Part shown: positions 365-60,749 of the stretch, in pieces | Position numbering within the stretch: position 1 is the first letter of the stretch | How the letters are laid out: each line of letters begins with the position of its first letter | Source of the DNA: Methanocaldococcus fervens AG86 | Lineage (GTDB): Archaea; AGJL01; Methanococci; Methanococcales; Methanocaldococcaceae | Assembly (NCBI RefSeq): GCF_000023985.1 | Contig: NC_013156.1 | Location: 422,363 to 486,362 of the forward strand | Direction: 5' to 3' | Length of the DNA stretch: 64,000 nucleotides | The notes under the pieces: model-generated | Database searches by the model: none | Seen by the model: the letters and a program-made list of their open reading frames with translations, nothing else | Told to the model about the DNA's origin: nothing | Program-made: the position numbers and the translations under genes

Positions 365-373
365 TTTCTCTTT

Positions 374-437
374 CAACCTTTTAGTAAAAGGTTGATCAAA
401 ACGGATATATTAAGGAGGGCTAAAGTCCCCCATAATG
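374..437 (+). repeat. dispersed hairpin repeat, type I copy (A)
   Basis: A 64-base element between tRNA-Ala and the end of thiDN. It has a hairpin CAACCTTTTA-gt-AAAAGGTTG, a linker gatcaaaacggatatattaa, and a second hairpin GGAGGgctaaagtCCCCC ending in cataatg. It is about 85-90% identical by eye to the reverse complement of 19481-19545 after atpC. The first hairpin and the gatcaaaac linker also occur at 2010-2040. The convergent position suggests it could also end transcripts, but the duplicated linker makes a mobile or repeated element more likely than a simple terminator. Confidence 0.75.
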
Positions 438-462
438 CCTCTTCTTATGAAGATTTGAATAT

Positions 463-1728: not shown

Positions 1729-1977
1729 TTATAAAGATTTTACATTTATTTCTCTTAAGCACTTCATAATTTTGTTTATATTTTCCTCTAAAACTTTAAT
1801 TTTTTCTAAATCTTCTTCAACTTCTTTACCTTTAATCTCACCGTTGGAAATTTTATTTTTAAACTCATCTATAGTTTTGGCGTTATATTTTTTTAATATT
1901 TCATTCAATTCATTTTCAAGTTCATTCAATTCCTCTAAAAATACTTTTTTCATTGATTTTATTATCATCTTTTCCAT
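1729..1977 (-). CDS. small coiled-coil protein, function unknown
   Basis: 82 residues from ATG 1977-1975, preceded by GAGGG. A longer reading from 2010 would begin inside a repeat element and lacks a ribosome binding site. The protein is almost entirely charged helix, rich in Glu, Lys and Leu with heptad-like spacing (residues ~12-75), so a coiled coil is likely. It lies between trpD and thiDN on the same strand. Its ribosome binding site sits within a duplicated copy of the trpD 3' end (1977-1991), so before the repeat element inserted the gene probably began directly after the trpD stop. Conserved in Methanocaldococcus as far as I recall; no function known to me. Confidence 0.75.
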   Translation of the reverse strand: MEKMIIKSMKKVFLEELNELENELNEILKKYNAKTIDEFKNKISNGEIKGKEVEEDLEKIKVLEENINKIMKCLREINVKSL

Positions 1978-1991
1978 AATCAGCCCTCTTT
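1977..1991. repeat. direct repeat, distal copy of trpD 3' end
   Basis: taatcagccctcttt matches 2101-2115 with one mismatch. On the minus strand both copies read Lys-Glu-Gly-stop, the real end of trpD; the single difference is silent (GGC/GGT). Together they flank the hairpin element at 1992-2100 like a target-site duplication. Confidence 0.75.
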
Positions 1992-2100
1992 CTGAAACTT
2001 TTAGCAACAACCTTTTAGTAAAAGGTTGATCAAAACTAAAGTGGGGTTGCCAAAGGCAACCCCGCTCTGGGGTATACCAATAGGGGCGTAGCCCCTATGG
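1992..2100 (-). repeat. double-hairpin element, type II copy (B) after trpD
   Basis: A 109-base non-coding element. Read on the minus strand it has hairpin CATAGGGGC-tac-GCCCCTATtG, the palindrome ggtatacc, hairpin GGGGTTGCC-ttt-GGCAACCCC, and then a third hairpin CAACCTTTTA/TAAAAGGTTG shared with element A at 374-437. Its first two hairpins recur at 30960-31054 and 35214-35282. It is bounded by the direct repeats 1977-1991 and 2101-2115. No reading frame of note. Confidence 0.8.
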
Positions 2101-2115
2101 TAATCAACCCTCTTT
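2101..2115. repeat. direct repeat, trpD-proximal copy
   Basis: taatcaaccctcttt, the partner of 1977-1991 (14 of 15 bases identical). It covers the last codons and TGA stop of trpD, so insertion of the intervening element left trpD intact. Confidence 0.75.
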
Positions 2116-7549: not shown

Positions 7550-8897
7550 ACTCCCAACCGAAATTGTATTGACTTACAAGGTTAAACACAATTACGATTT
7601 AAAAAACTTACCAGATGATTTTATAAAAACTTCTCAAAAAGCAGTCGATATTATTTGGAATAATATTAACTGGAAGGAAAAGACAGTTAAACATCGATAC
7701 AAAATAGGAAAGAAGAAATACAAATATTATACAACTACTCGACTAATCCCTGAAATTCCAAAGGACAAGGATTTTAAAAGAGAGTTAAGAAATCGTTTAT
7801 TAAAAGGTTGGGAGTTTGCTTCCCACTATGTCGATGGAGCTATTAAAGTTGCCTATTCAGCAATAGAGAGTTGGAAGTCGAATTATTTAAATGGAAAAAG
7901 AGGGAGAAACAAGCCAATATTCAAAAGACCTTTTGTTAGGGTTAAAACTACTTTAATGAAATACGATAAAGAAAAGGGAGTAATAAGAATTACAATAAAA
8001 CCGAGAAAAGAGTATTTAATTTTAAACATTAAAAATGAATGGTTTTTCGATAGGGTTGAGGATTTTAATATTGGAGAGGTTATCTTAAAGGATAACGAGG
8101 CATTAATAACCTTTAAAAAACCGTTGGATTTATCCGATAGAAAAGTTGTTATTGGTGTTGATAGTAATTTGAAATCGTTAGATTTGTATCATCCGATAGA
8201 AGGTTGGATTAGGATTGATTTGTCTGAATTGCATAGGATAAAGAGGGTTTATGATGTTATTATCGATAAGTTAAAGTCAATCTACAAAAAAGCTCCGAAG
8301 AGGATTGGTAAATTATTAAAAAAATACTGGAATAGGAGAAGAAATAGGGTTGAGGACTTTATTAACAAGCTAACGTCCCAATTACCTAAACTCTTTCCAG
8401 ATGCGATTTTCATCTTTGAAGATTTGGATAAGTTTAATATGTATAAGAATTCGGATTTTAATAGGGATTTGAATAGAACTAACTGGAGAAAAATAGCGAA
8501 AAAGTTGGAGTATAAGAGTGTTGTCCTATACGTTAATCCTCACTATACTTCAAAAACCTGCCCCGTATGCGGGAGTAAAATGAAGTCCCAAGAGGGGCAG
8601 GTTGTTAAATGCGATAAGTGTGGAGTTTTTGATAGGCAGTTTGTCGGATGTTTTAATATCTTTAAAAGAGGAGTTGAATTAACTAAAAAACTCTTAGGCG
8701 GAGTTGGGGTCCCCGTGGCTGGGGTTGAGAGCGATGATTTACTCTCCAATGAACCCAGAGGGGAGTTGAGACCGATGAAGCCCAATCCCAACGTGGAAGC
8801 GAAGCTTCCAGTAAGGGAAATCTTTGATTTCCCTCTGATGGTCTATACAGTAGATTTAAATGGAAAAGTTTTAAAATCTATAATTGTCCATGAATGA
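7530..8897 (+). CDS. tnpB: TnpB, RNA-guided endonuclease of the IS607 element
   Basis: 455 residues, GGGAGG before the ATG. RuvC-like catalytic residues are present: D211 in [10 protein letters not shown]297 in [10 protein letters not shown] and D368 in [11 protein letters not shown] zinc ribbon has C344/C347 (CPVCG) and C361/C364 (CDKC). TnpB proteins are the ancestors of Cas12 and cut DNA guided by a transposon-end RNA, helping the element persist. The natural C-terminus appears to be near KLPVREI; the last ~20 residues are read from host DNA past the element end (~8843), so the terminal tail is specific to this insertion. All key residues present suggests an active protein. Confidence 0.92.
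8795..8833 (+). ncRNA. paired triloop hairpins at tnpB right end (possible guide-RNA scaffold)
   Basis: Hairpins GGAAGC-gaa-GCTTCC and GGGAAATC-ttt-GATTTCCC lie five bases apart inside the tnpB 3' coding end. The same pair in the same order recurs at 59510-59545. TnpB elements transcribe a guide RNA from this end; that these hairpins belong to it is inference. Confidence 0.45.
8844..8897 (+). pseudogene. 3' part of the tiny ORF split by the IS607 element
   Basis: Host-derived sequence in the same frame as tnpB, encoding [17 protein letters not shown] and a TGA that overlaps the next ATG (ATGA). It rejoins in frame with 6864-6881. Now it is read as the tail of TnpB. Confidence 0.4.
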
Positions 8898-16910: not shown

Positions 16911-17567
16911 ATGGTAGATCCTTTAATCTTAGGAGCTATTGGAGCTGGTTTAGCTGTCGGTATTGCTGGTTTAGGTTCAGGGATTGGAGCAGGAATTACT
17001 GGAGCTAGCGGAGCAGGAGTTGTCGCAGAAGATCCTAACAAGTTCGGTACCGCTATAGTCTTCCAGGCATTACCACAGACCCAGGGTTTATATGGATTTT
17101 TAGTTGCAATCCTTATTTTGTTCGTCTTTAAAACAGCTTCACCATGGGCAATGTTCGCAGCTGGTTTAGCAGCTGGTTTAGCAGGTTTATCAGCTATTGG
17201 TCAGGGGATTGCTGCTTCAGCTGGTTTAGGAGCTGTTGCTGAAGACAACAGCATATTCGGTAAGGCAATGGTCTTCTCCGTCCTTCCAGAGACCCAGGCA
17301 ATCTACGGTTTATTAGTTGCTATCTTGCTATTAGTTGGAGTCTTTAACGGAGCTGGTGCAACAGAGATAGCTGCTTTAGGGGCAGGGTTTGCAGTTGGTT
17401 TCGCTGGTCTCTCTGGTATTGGGCAAGGTATTACAGCTGCTGGAGCTATTGGAGCTACAGCAAGAGACCCAGATGCTATGGGTAAAGGTTTGGTTTTAGC
17501 TGTTATGCCAGAGACATTCGCTATCTTTGGTTTGTTGATTGCAATCTTGATCATGCTCATGGTCTAA
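16911..17567 (+). CDS. atpK: A-type ATP synthase subunit K, triplicated proteolipid
   Basis: 218 residues from ATG 16911 (GGTGA five bases upstream). It is three fused hairpins, six transmembrane helices. Hairpins 2 and 3 carry the ion-carrying Glu in VLPETQAIYG and VMPETFAIFG, paired with a Gln in GIGQGI on the preceding helix, the sodium-type ligand set. Hairpin 1 has LPQTQGLYG, with Gln in place of Glu. A six-helix proteolipid with only two carboxylates was reported for M. jannaschii, so this is a conserved design: fewer ions per rotation than a simple ring. Forms the rotor ring with subunit I. Confidence 0.95.
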   Translation: MVDPLILGAIGAGLAVGIAGLGSGIGAGITGASGAGVVAEDPNKFGTAIVFQALPQTQGLYGFLVAILILFVFKTASPWAMFAAGLAAGLAGLSAIGQGIAASAGLGAVAEDNSIFGKAMVFSVLPETQAIYGLLVAILLLVGVFNGAGATEIAALGAGFAVGFAGLSGIGQGITAAGAIGATARDPDAMGKGLVLAVMPETFAIFGLLIAILIMLMV

Positions 17568-19457: not shown

Positions 19458-19480
19458 TAAAGCTGAAAATTATTAAGGGA

Positions 19481-19545
19481 CATTATGAGGGGCTTTAGCC
19501 CCTCCTTAATACATCCGTTTTGGTCAAGCTTTTACAAAAGGTTGG
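19481..19545 (-). repeat. dispersed hairpin repeat, type I copy (C)
   Basis: Reverse complement is nearly the same as 374-437: hairpin CCTTTTgtAAAAGcTTG, linker gaccaaaacggatgtattaa, hairpin GGAGGGGCTAAAGCCCCTC, end cataatg. It separates atpC from atpF. Both hairpins keep pairing, while changes fall in loops and linker. No clear flanking direct repeats were found. Confidence 0.8.
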
Positions 19546-30943: not shown

Positions 30944-30959
30944 TTATTCAAGTATAATA
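30944..30959. repeat. direct repeat, distal copy of purM 3' end
   Basis: ttattcaagtataata is identical to 31055-31070 over 16 bases. On the minus strand both read Ile-Ile-Leu-Glu-stop in frame, the end of purM. They flank the hairpin element 30960-31054. Confidence 0.8.
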
Positions 30960-31054
30960 CACCATAGGAGCAAAGCCCCTATTGGTATACCAGGATGCAT
31001 CGCCTCGCTAACGCTTGGCAATGCCTCTTAAAAGGTACCTATCTCTTTACTACT
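30960..31054 (+). repeat. double-hairpin element, type II copy (D) after purM
   Basis: 95 bases in the purF-purM gap. ccataggagcaaagcccctattggtatacc matches the start of element B (1992-2100, minus strand), including the ggtatacc palindrome. The second hairpin, GCATcGCC / GGCaATGC, has different bases but the same place. Flanked by the perfect 16-base direct repeat. Diverged relative to B. Confidence 0.78.
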
Positions 31055-31070
31055 TTATTCAAGTATAATA
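31055..31070. repeat. direct repeat, purM-proximal copy
   Basis: Partner of 30944-30959, 16 of 16 bases identical. It begins exactly at the purM TAA stop and covers its last codons, so purM is intact. Confidence 0.8.
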
Positions 31071-34194: not shown

Positions 34195-35139
34195 CTAAAA
34201 CCTCCTTATATTTGGATTAACTGTCGCTCTTTCTATATTCCAAACTTCATTCAGCACATTTGAGGAGAGAGAAGGTCTTAAGAAAGGCACTTTAAAGCTA
34301 ACTGCTATGTGGGCAAATGATGAGTTATTTCCAAATATTACAGGATAAGGCCCCTTATCCATAATGTAATTTATATAGTAATACATCTCAGTTATTGTCC
34401 CCATCTCATAAGGAAAAACCTTAACAAAATCGCTCTCTTCATAAATACTCTCAGTGCATAAAAATCCATCAAATTCTACAGGCTCCTCAACCTCTAAATA
34501 ATCAATTTGGGATAAATCTTTATCTTTAACAATATCTTTTTTGGTGCTAAGCCCCAATAATATATCTAAATCCTCATCCTCTTTAATCTCATCTATCAGC
34601 TCTCTAATTTTTGGAATCTCATTAAAAACATCTTTGCATACATAGGCCCCATTGATATTTACAACATCATAATCCTCTGACAAAATATCTGAAAGCTTTA
34701 GATTCAAATTAACGATATCCTCTATAGATTCAGCCATAACTATTGGAAATAATTCATTGTTATTTTTATCAGCCAATATTCCAGATGCTACTATAGGCAA
34801 ATCTGTAGTTAAAGCCCCTCCTAAAAATTTAAATAATGGGATGTCTAAGCTGTTTGAAGCTGCCCTCGCTACACTAATAGAAATCCCCATTGTCACATTT
34901 GGGTTGTTGGCTGAGGTCTCACAAATCAATGTATCTATAAAATCAATATCTGTTGCAGGATATCCAATAAGTTCTGGGGCTATAACATTTTCAACATCAG
35001 CTATTGCCTCTTCTGGATTATCTACCTCAATGATATCATACCCAATGGAGACATTTGTCATTGTTGTGATCATTACCTTAATTTTAGCTCCTTTAAAAAC
35101 TTCTTTTGCACTTATTTTTTCAATAATAACATTTGTCAA
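34195..35139 (-). CDS. enolase-like protein lacking catalytic residues
   Basis: 314 residues, start TTG 35139 with GGTGG upstream. It resembles enolase over its length (SANNPNVTMGISISVARAASNSLDIPLFKFLGG, VNINGAYVCKDVF) but is about 100 residues shorter than enolase and lacks the GGKHAGN, SIEDPF and SHRSGE active-site motifs present in the true enolase at 4014. It is therefore probably not an enzyme of glycolysis. Its position with RNA polymerase and ribosomal genes is conserved in methanococci as far as I recall. Function unknown. Confidence 0.82.
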   Translation of the reverse strand: MTNVIIEKISAKEVFKGAKIKVMITTMTNVSIGYDIIEVDNPEEAIADVENVIAPELIGYPATDIDFIDTLICETSANNPNVTMGISISVARAASNSLDIPLFKFLGGALTTDLPIVASGILADKNNNELFPIVMAESIEDIVNLNLKLSDILSEDYDVVNINGAYVCKDVFNEIPKIRELIDEIKEDEDLDILLGLSTKKDIVKDKDLSQIDYLEVEEPVEFDGFLCTESIYEESDFVKVFPYEMGTITEMYYYINYIMDKGPYPVIFGNNSSFAHIAVSFKVPFLRPSLSSNVLNEVWNIERATVNPNIRRF

Positions 35140-35178: not shown

Positions 35179-35213
35179 GGTTATGCTTTTACAGGTCTTA
35201 TTGGCTTTAATGG
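35179..35213. repeat. direct repeat, distal copy of rpoK 3' end
   Basis: 35 bases matching 35283-35317 with three differences. On the minus strand it reads PLKPIRPVKA-stop, the exact C-terminus of RpoK; all three differences fall in third codon positions and are silent. Flanks the hairpin element 35214-35282. Confidence 0.85.
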
Positions 35214-35282
35214 CATAGGGCTTACACCCTATTGCTATATCTCAGAGCGAGGTTACCTTTGGCAATCCCACTATAATTACGC
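35214..35282 (+). repeat. double-hairpin element, type II copy (E) after rpoK
   Basis: 69 bases. catagggcttacaccctattgctata then cagagcgaggttacctttggcaatccca align base for base with element B read from the minus strand (ccataggggctacgcccctattggtata, cagagcggggttgcctttggcaacccca). Pairing in both hairpins is partly decayed, so this is an older copy. Bounded by a 35-base direct repeat of the rpoK end. Confidence 0.78.
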
Positions 35283-35317
35283 GGTTATGCCTTTACAGGT
35301 CTTATCGGTTTTAATGG
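35283..35317. repeat. direct repeat, rpoK-proximal copy
   Basis: Partner of 35179-35213; encodes the functional last codons and stop of rpoK on the minus strand. Confidence 0.85.
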
Positions 35318-35458
35318 GACTTTTCCTTGCTCAATCTCTTCATAAGCTATTTTTAATGAGCTGTCTTGTTTTGTTTCAATGGTTGCATAGGCTCCATTTG
35401 ATATCTGCAAACTTCTCGCTCCAAGTATTCTTGCAATCTCAAATTTTGTTAATCTCAA
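35285..35458 (-). CDS. rpoK: DNA-directed RNA polymerase subunit K
   Basis: 57 residues, MLRLTKFEIARILGARSLQISNGAYATIE to PLKPIRPVKA, the archaeal RpoK (eukaryal RPB6) core. The GGTGA site lies one base before this ATG and four bases before an in-frame TTG one codon on, so either could start; a start at an ATG three codons upstream is also possible. Lies between tRNA-Pro and the enolase-like gene. Its last ten codons are duplicated beyond element E. Confidence 0.95.
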   Translation of the reverse strand: MRLTKFEIARILGARSLQISNGAYATIETKQDSSLKIAYEEIEQGKVPLKPIRPVKA

Positions 35459-35495
35459 CATATCACCCATAAAAAATAATAATTTTGGTAAAAAA

Positions 35496-59036: not shown

Positions 59037-59810
59037 ATGGCAGTTGCCTATGCTAAGTTATATGAGATTAATTTATAAAAATGTTAAGGATGAGAAAAAA
59101 GCGGAGGAGTTATATAAGGCAGTTGAGGAGTTCATTAAACAAAATGAGATAATAGAATATGTTTAAAGAAGAAAAAATAATTATTAAAAATGAACTAAAA
59201 GATGAGTTAAGGAAAGAATTGGCTACAAAAGATGATATTTTATTAGTGGAAGAGAGATTAAGGGGAGAAATGAAGGCGATGAAGGAAGAAATATTAAGAT
59301 ATGTTGATAATAGATTTAACCAATTAGACAAAAAAAATGACAGTTGGATTTATGACGGCTCTCCGAGCTAAAGCTCGGAGTTTCGGGAGAGCAGAGGTTT
59401 AAAACCTCACCCTCCCCGGCTCCGCCAAAGCCACTACCCCTATCCCTTACGGGACTCGGGGCTACCTTCTCCCAACCATTAGCCCCCAGCGGCAGGATTT
59501 TCGAGACCGAAGCGAAGCTTTGGGTAGCGAAATCCTTGATTTCGCCTGAATCCCATCCATAATAACGTGGACTAGGGGCAATAGTTAGTATTCTGTTTCG
59601 AGTATATAAAACTAATGCTTGTCCCACCCGCCTCTCCTATCTCCGAGCGTAGCGAGGAGGGATTAAAAATCTCTGATTTTTAAGAATTCATCACCGCCCT
59701 AAAGGTCGGTGCTTTCTTAGCGACAACTAATGGTAATTTTAATATTGCTCTATATATTAACAAATCCAAATGCTATTGAGTTGATAAAACTATTATTTAA
59801 TTTAAAATAA
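59037..59810 (+). pseudogene. coiled-coil/membrane-tail protein, frameshifted and interrupted by an IS relic
   Basis: GGTGATTTT then ATG 59037 reads MAVAYAKLYE, then in the next frame LIYKNVKDEKKAEELYKAVEEFIKQNE, then in a third frame FKEEKIIIKNELKDELRKELATKDDILLVEERLRGEMKAMKEEILRYVDNRFNQLDKK up to ~59340. After the GC-rich insertion, 59724-59810 encodes LMVILILLYILTNPNAIELIKLLFNLK-stop, the C-terminal membrane helix. MAVAYAKLYE-type coiled-coil proteins with a hydrophobic tail are common in Methanocaldococcus as I recall. At least two frameshifts plus the insertion: a pseudogene. Confidence 0.75.
59345..59720 (+). mobile_element. GC-rich insertion-sequence relic without a transposase gene
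   Basis: About 375 bases of high GC inside an AT-rich pseudogene. Left end has GCTCTCCGAGC-taaa-GCTCGGAG. At 59510-59545 are hairpins AAGC-gaa-GCTT and GCGAAATC-ctt-GATTTCGC, the same pair in the same order as at the end of the intact tnpB (8795-8833). A second pair at 59641-59683 has CTCcGaGC/GCgAGGAG and TTAAAAATC-tct-GATTTTTAA. It ends gaattcatcaccgccctaaaggtcggtgctttc (59684 on), with the CACCG/CGGTG hairpin typical of IS200/IS605 right ends. No tnpA or tnpB frame remains. No reading frame on either strand convinced me. Confidence 0.75.
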
Positions 59811-59840
59811 ATTAAAAAATTCAATAAGGAGGGGATAATC

Positions 59841-60749
59841 ATAATTAAAAAACTAATTGAAGCATTAAGACAGGCACAAGATGATGACTTTAAAATATTA
59901 AAAATTATAGAAATATCAATGAGACATCACGAGTGGGTGCCATTGGATGAGATTGTTAGAAAGGCGAAGATGCCAGAAAAGGATGTGTTGTATAGATTAA
60001 AGAGATTGAACAAATTTGGATTTGTTGTGAGAAGCACTTATGGTTATGCTGTTTCAATGGGGGGTTATGATGCTCTTGCAATAAATGCATTTGTTAAAAA
60101 GGGTATCTTGAAAGCCATAGGTAATAAGTTGGGGGTTGGTAAGGAGGGGGATGTTTATACCGTCTTACTGGGTGATGGGAGAGAGGCAGTTTTAAAATTC
60201 CACAAGCATGGGAGGACTTGCTTTACAAGAGGGAAGAGATACAGGGAGTATTTAGCTGATAAGCATCATATAAGTTGGCTCTATGTTTCAAGATTAACGG
60301 CTGAGAGAGAGTTTGAGATTTTAAACGAGTTATTTCCAATAGTTAAAGTTCCTGAGCCAATAGCGTGGAATAGACATGCCATTATTATGGGTAAGGTTGT
60401 TGGAGAAGAGTTAAAGAGATTGGACTTATCAGAATTTATGAGTAAGGATGAGATTAAGGACTTGTTTTGGAAAATTATTGAGGAGATTAAAAAAGCTTAT
60501 GAAATTGGCTACATACATGGGGATTTAAGTGAGTTCAACATTTTATTAGATGAGAGTGAGGATTTCGTTATTATTGATTGGCCTCAGGCAGTGCCTAAAT
60601 ATCATCCAGACGCTGAGTTTTATTTAAAGAGAGATATTTGGAATGTAATAAGGTATTTTAAAAAATATAAGATTGATAAAGAGGATGAGAGGATTGATGT
60701 TGATAAAATCTTTGAGTATATAACTGGAAAAGGACTTTCACAGGGATAG
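59841..60749 (+). CDS. rio2: RIO2-type protein kinase/ATPase, no standard start codon
   Basis: The N-terminal winged helix of RIO2 begins upstream of the first ATG (59919): the frame from ATA 59841 reads IIKKLIEALRQAQDDDFKILKIIEISM and continues RHHEWVPLDEIV. AAGGAGGGG lies six bases before ATA; no ATG, GTG or TTG is there. The kinase core has GVGKEGDVYTVLL, VLKFHKHGRTCF, catalytic YIHGDLSEFNILL and IIDWPQAV. RIO2 acts in late 40S/30S small-subunit maturation and is essential in eukaryotes, so a dead gene is unlikely; a non-standard start is more probable. 302 residues. Confidence 0.88.
   Translation: MIKKLIEALRQAQDDDFKILKIIEISMRHHEWVPLDEIVRKAKMPEKDVLYRLKRLNKFGFVVRSTYGYAVSMGGYDALAINAFVKKGILKAIGNKLGVGKEGDVYTVLLGDGREAVLKFHKHGRTCFTRGKRYREYLADKHHISWLYVSRLTAEREFEILNELFPIVKVPEPIAWNRHAIIMGKVVGEELKRLDLSEFMSKDEIKDLFWKIIEEIKKAYEIGYIHGDLSEFNILLDESEDFVIIDWPQAVPKYHPDAEFYLKRDIWNVIRYFKKYKIDKEDERIDVDKIFEYITGKGLSQG

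Follow-up and report, generated by a model that had tools for sequence, protein, structure and literature searches.

The YPAL/RU-2 elements of Yersinia are small, carry internal inverted repeats and lack a terminal inverted repeat; their target duplications measure anywhere from 3 to 26 bp, empty sites are known, and their mobiliser is unknown (PMC2229807). On integration at a tRNA 3' end, casposons duplicate 14-15 bp and the gene is spared (PMC6614799). In Methanocaldococcus jannaschii, palindromic repeats have been described under the name MJRE (Suyama, Lathe and Bork 2005, FEBS Lett 579:5281, as cited in PMC2229807).

Here we analyzed a stretch of 64,000 nucleotides of the Methanocaldococcus fervens AG86 genome (the window), in which the end of rpoK is present on both sides of a palindromic element. 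The MJRE are reportedly short palindromic extragenic repeats, some of which lie within open reading frames without breaking them. To our knowledge, no target duplications, empty sites or association with gene ends have been reported for MJRE. A literature search confined largely to papers outside subscription journals found no report of target duplications of Methanocaldococcus repeats, which is weak evidence of novelty. We consider it probable that a small palindromic mobile element, itself non-autonomous, inserted at the rpoK end long ago and gave rise to a long target-site duplication.

Results

The end of rpoK is duplicated around a decayed element

The two 35-bp copies of the rpoK end differ at three positions, and both read PLKPIRPVKA-stop on the minus strand (Table 1). 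All three mismatches are silent third positions; re-reading both copies confirmed the original prediction on each of these points, and while three of three means little at rpoK alone, the excess of silent differences is significant across all pairs of copies (see below). The direct-repeat score at this site was 26; when the flanks were shuffled 60 times, it never exceeded 11. The element between the copies is made up of a CATAGGG...CCCTAT hairpin module followed by a GGTTACC/GGCAATC stem remnant, and positions 35213-35279 are 84% identical to four better-preserved composite palindromic elements on the same chromosome. Its folding is on a par with that of shuffled sequence (z -0.48), and the earlier description of its hairpins as decayed is therefore fair. 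Both copies in M. fervens (G000) use the codons CCA/GCA and both copies in G011 use CCT/GCG, for which concerted evolution of the copies was considered as a possible reading.

Table 1. Features of the window, and classes of duplication sites in the genomes compared
Feature	Position in window, or sites	Strand	Remarks
Gene-proximal 35-bp copy, rpoK end (PLKPIRPVKA-stop plus CC)	35283..35317	-	
Distal 35-bp copy, outside any gene	35179..35213	-	missing in G001 and outgroups, whose rpoK site is empty
Decayed palindromic mosaic element, 69 bp, separating the rpoK copies	35214..35282	.	
rpoK (RNA polymerase subunit K, Rpb6-like), CDS intact	35285..35470	-	orthologues in 13/14 genus genomes
Enolase-like gene, next downstream of rpoK	34195..35139	-	putative name, from the sequence
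Gene-proximal 15-bp copy, trpD end (AAAGAGGGTTGATTA)	2101..2115	-	
Distal 15-bp copy, trpD end (AAAGAGGGCTGATTA)	1977..1991	-	abuts start of next gene
Palindromic element at trpD end, one terminus CCATAGGGG	1992..2100	.	
Gene-proximal 16-bp copy, purM end (TATTATACTTGAATAA)	31055..31070	-	exact
Distal 16-bp copy, purM end	30944..30959	-	exact
Palindromic element at purM end, one terminus CCTATGGTG	30960..31054	.	
Family element, end of the gene directly preceding V/A-type ATPase subunit genes	19474..19541	.	empty in G001, G003, G006
Family element directly after tRNA-Ala (288-364)	373..450	.	
Stop or near-stop ends of protein genes, 15 sites	rpoK, trpD, purM, L025-2, L037, L047, L034, pyrC; in G003: L201, L203, L204, L207, L208, L211, L226		
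tRNA 3' ends, six sites	L007, L054/G001, L200, L206, L216, L224		
sRNA 3' end	L222		weak C/D-box sRNA match, below Rfam's cut-off
Gene starts, 3 sites	L041, L045, L033		
Stop/start junction, 1 site	L025-1		
In frame within an ORF, 1 site	L212		element and 24-bp repeats inside one 400-aa ORF

Two further gene ends in the window, those of trpD and purM, behave like that of rpoK, bearing out the description of rpoK as the third of three such duplications. The trpD copies have a single, silent difference. Both sites are empty and single-copy in relatives with a readable flank, a comparison that leaves out genomes with contig ends or rearranged flanks there, and among the readable genomes both insertions were found in M. 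fervens only. These two are the cleanest target duplications of the set. Ancestrally, about 4 bp separate trpD from its neighbor; after the duplication the trpD end and the start region of the next gene are both intact.

For the family elements after tRNA-Ala and upstream of the ATPase genes, a clear gene-end repeat was not found in M. fervens. The latter may have a diverged gene-end repeat (LLINL-stop / LISL-stop); L027 and L039 (window 19474-19541) were dropped as gene-end repeats and left out of the site count because the element itself may make up their proximal ends. At the tRNA-Ala gene of G001, a different element is flanked by duplicates of about 30 bp of the tRNA 3' end. Elsewhere in the window, G+C-rich palindromes at 59355-59990 and 8790-8840 (GAAGCGAAGCTT, CTCCGAGCTAAAGCTCGGAG) are unlike the main element modules, and imperfect direct repeats at 16943-17411 (GCTGGTTTAGC units) are probably a repetitive protein segment.

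The element family and its modules

The M. fervens chromosome (G000; 1,485,061 plus about 22,000 bases) holds 57 matches to the full composite element, and G003 (1,664,970 bp) holds 40. Matches to the family were found in 11 of the 14 genus genomes searched, with none in G002, G008 and G012, and, outside the genus, in two genomes from a single further genus of the order. Inserts range from 69 to 300 bp. At one end, adjoining the duplication, (C)CATAGGG is frequent; this hairpin terminus itself provides the TAG stop at L208. The opposite end is irregular or a AAAGGTTG/AAAGTTTC hairpin. A constant terminal inverted repeat was not found at the compared sites.

Module content at the same junction differs from species to species, pointing to exchange of hairpin modules over time. 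At one gene end (L040/L117/L173), arrays of alternating hairpins vary in number and content among G000, G001 and G006, apparently showing fast module turnover at a fixed site. Three M. fervens elements (L026, L027 and L028) are mutually 96-98% identical and have no visible target duplications, which suggests homogenisation between copies and not recent insertion. Another element of G003 (L142 and L158), with terminal inverted repeats TAGGACTTTCGCAG...CTGCGAAAGTCCTA, lies at convergent gene ends and looks like an ordinary MITE.

Gene-boundary duplications in five genomes

Thirty-one element sites of G000 were mapped to G001, G003, G006 and G004, and stretches from G001, G003 and G006 were compared; in addition, 30 element matches of G003 were sampled regardless of any repeat, and long direct repeats flank about half of these. 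A flanking direct-repeat score of at least 16 was obtained for 14 of 60 elements (G000 and G003 together) as against 1 of 219 displaced control positions. By hand count, about 27 distinct gene-boundary sites in five genomes carry a duplication (Table 1), and none among them is purely intergenic. The duplications are 14-50 bp long (median 29, from 26 sites with boundaries set by eye). Sparing of the gene end, as originally predicted for rpoK, holds at many sites.

The prediction had offered two reasons for this pattern, a preference for stop codons as targets or survival only where the gene end is restored. As worded, the first fails: strict stop-codon targeting is contradicted by the gene-start sites (L041 and L045 among them), the tRNA and sRNA sites, the duplication inside an ORF (L212), and three G003 sites (L203, L207 and L211) at which the proximal copy ends before the stop and the element provides the last residues. 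Random insertions that break no gene would be expected to be purely intergenic in 38-69% of cases, with stops about as frequent as starts, on a crude gene map of the window. The observed 15 stops against 3 starts depart from this (P=0.008), as do 6 tRNA ends among 22 sites (P about 5e-6, with 37 tRNA genes assumed). Survival of gene-sparing insertions accounts for much of the placement, and the stop-to-start ratio together with about seven RNA-gene 3' ends suggests some real 3'-end bias. We read the placement as survival where the gene stays usable, plus a possible bias of this kind, because detection favors conserved ends and insertions close to gene starts harm promoters.

At some sites the reading frame itself involves the element. 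In L036 (1698-1770, a dihydroorotase-like gene) and L025 (750-790) the frame enters the element and acquires a new C-terminal tail (e.g. ...GKVYERWPYVHLHCN). In L168 of G003 (about 920-1070), the duplicated gene start opens a short ORF that continues in frame across the element (MRYVAYHRAPPYWDTRRPSSW...) and terminates at a TGA overlapping the true start codon. CRISPR arrays with 30-bp repeats adjoin two mapped sites, L113 (1560-2000, G001) and L151 (613-711, G003).

Age, empty sites and apparent element loss

G011 carries an element and a clear distal copy at the rpoK junction occupied in G000. In G003 the junction holds a related element and a deletion leaves AAGGCATAA of the distal copy, and G006 retains remnants only. 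Among the genomes compared there, the site is empty in G001 and in the outgroups G004, G005, G009, G010, G012 and G013. In a three-locus tree, G003 and G006 are sisters (bootstrap 96-99), and G001 is placed within the rpoK-occupied group with 66-73% support. The insertion is older than the split of G000, G011, G003 and G006, because it is common to all four (decayed in G003 and G006), in agreement with the age that the earlier reading had drawn from the decayed hairpins. The G001 lineage would have either lost the element or branched earlier.

At several sites, relatives were compared and the empty sites were found to carry a single copy of the gene end. At the gene end of L047, G000, G001 and G006 have an element, but G003, which is sister to G006, is cleanly empty. 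G003, G006 and the distant G004 share the junction of their L203 element; G001 is empty there, and its gene end matches the distal-type end of G006. At L201, the lone copy of G006 mixes codons unique to the proximal and codons unique to the distal copy of G003. These three sites would be best explained by deletion through recombination between the copies. Insertions are old, and some appear to have been cleanly lost. Some of the losses could be separate gains, because the deeper branching is weakly supported (66-73).

Both copies change almost only at silent sites

Proximal and distal copies were compared in 22 pairs from 16 sites, using hand-chosen codon alignments in which some pairs share history. 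There were 59.5 silent differences at 124 silent sites and 20.5 replacement differences at 500 replacement sites (pS 0.48, pN 0.041), giving a dN/dS of 0.055 (site bootstrap 0.021-0.095). A neutral distal copy would give roughly 0.5; neutral decay of the distal copy is rejected by this value, and the distal copies therefore did not drift freely. Third positions account for 37 of 56 differences, weakly above the 50% expected for a neutral distal copy (P=0.011). Silent divergence between copies is about equal to that between species. Measured against orthologues, the distal copies have a pN of 0.00-0.03 and are no more harshly changed than the proximal ones. Some distal copies (G004 L203, G006 L047, G006 L037 and G000 L025-2) are nonetheless frameshifted by deletions, replaced in part or decayed at their ends. 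The question of which copy is ancestral has no single answer: the distal copy is nearer to the relatives at several sites, L207 and L025-2 among them, and others are mixed.

Redundant gene ends that lie past a stop codon and change almost only at silent sites are a puzzle. Our preferred explanation is that distal copies, being joined to the downstream flank, are replaced by recombination with the functional ends of empty-site alleles.

Search for a mobiliser

No transposase or other mobiliser could be tied to the element in a search of 14 genus genomes for reverse transcriptase, Y1 transposase and Cas1. Reverse transcriptase (PF00078) was found in 0 of 14 genomes, with controls detected, and a target-primed reverse-transcription model was rejected on this basis. 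Y1 transposase (PF01797) was found in 2 of 14 genomes, M. fervens not being among these; mobilisation of the REP/RAYT kind was rejected since the Y1 (RAYT-like) transposase is absent from M. fervens. We know of no target duplication made by IS200/IS605-type insertion. Cas1 is ordinary-looking and mostly present once per genome. Unlike in a MITE of a DDE transposon, the termini differ ((C)CATAGGG at one end, the hairpin or irregular end at the other) and the duplication, at 14-50 bp, is not of a fixed short length.

Discussion

For an old insertion of a palindromic element, we envision that a break with two nicks 14-50 bp apart is made at the target, and that fill-in of the gaps after this staggered break would duplicate the target. 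Insertions within genes would be purged by selection, and survivors would be those in which the duplication covers a gene boundary or the element sequence provides an acceptable end. Later, the element may decay, exchange hairpin modules with other copies, or be deleted by recombination between the duplicates, which would leave a normal gene. Distal copies may look recently coding-selected because they are refreshed from, or returned to, functional ends through recombination with empty-site alleles. Several observations count against a mobile element: the search above tied no transposase or other mobiliser to it, some near-identical elements show no visible duplication, and the low dN/dS is not expected of a simply dead distal copy.

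Machinery that targets gene 3' ends, including the T-loop to CCA ends of tRNAs, in the manner of casposases or tyrosine integrases would account directly for the site counts in Table 1, for the lack of intergenic sites and for the departures from random survival. We consider such directed insertion unlikely, since intergenic duplications are under-detected (repeats stay recognisable for longer where they cover conserved RNA or coding ends), selection acts against start-proximal insertions that separate promoters, inspection by eye showed no target motif shared by the sites, and the tRNA probability rests on the assumed denominator of 37 genes. The coding-like divergence of the distal copies would also follow if these were functional, as spare or alternative gene ends used in some cells after excision, with the element acting as a reversible cassette and not as debris. 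The dN/dS, the mild divergence of distal copies from orthologues and the likeness of empty-site relatives' gene ends to the distal copy all agree with this. We nevertheless hold it to be distinctly doubtful, given that several distal copies are frameshifted or replaced, that a stop codon stands before each of them, and that excision frequent enough for selection should wipe out one of the two, elements or silent differences. A broader proposal, which we regard as quite unlikely, is a new mechanism of hyperthermophilic archaea that makes cuts staggered by 14-50 bp, prefers the 3' ends of protein, tRNA and sRNA genes, and builds reversible gene-end cassettes in which both copies stay protein-selected beyond species divergence and either can become the real end after the element leaves.

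Direct repeats together with hairpins generally promote replication slippage, which favors a scenario in which gene ends were duplicated in tandem and elements or hairpins arose or inserted between the copies afterwards. This is very improbable here: the exact 16-bp purM and the 15-bp trpD duplications match the element boundaries and the empty sites, and no gene-end duplication without an element was seen in the genomes examined. Relatives with such a duplication had been named in advance as evidence for simple tandem duplication; what was found instead, together with the single-copy empty sites, disfavors it and ties the duplication to the element. Off-target integration by Cas1-Cas2 or a casposase-like enzyme, with a repeat-sized target being duplicated, would fit the median duplication length, which is near the 30-bp CRISPR repeat of G001 and G003, as well as the duplications that casposases make at a tRNA 3' end (PMC6614799); G008 and G012, which lack elements, also lack a Cas1 match. 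The inserts are, however, family repeats of 69-300 bp and not spacers, the duplication length varies, and G002 has Cas1 and no element match, so that this origin is barely credible.

If the elements are indeed old insertions, then what were taken as old palindromic repeats become elements with demonstrable insertion and loss, and the tolerance of a compact genome for them would lie in the target duplication, which saves the gene. The gene still works and a spare end lies beyond the element because the insertion would have copied the last 14-50 bases of the gene. This raises the question of which enzyme makes such long and variable staggered cuts.

Judged by genus and anatomy, the element family of the window is probably MJRE. 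Both are from the same genus and are palindromic and multi-copy, in the numbers given above, and a copy lies in frame inside a coding region here as well (L212). The mosaic arrays of short palindromes between genes also resemble REP/BIME repeats, which are mobilised by a RAYT Y1 transposase, but M. fervens is without one. Casposons are large and autonomous and carry cas1, polB and terminal inverted repeats; no such features were seen in the elements here, and their fixed duplication of 14-15 bp does not fit the varying length at these sites. Closest in behavior is YPAL/RU-2, for which, as here, target duplications of variable length are shown by empty sites; the likeness is one of behavior only, and common descent is not claimed. 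YPAL/RU-2 is a bacterial, single-unit element of about 168 bp, whereas the elements described here form an archaeal mosaic of exchangeable hairpin modules, with longer duplications that are strongly placed at gene boundaries.
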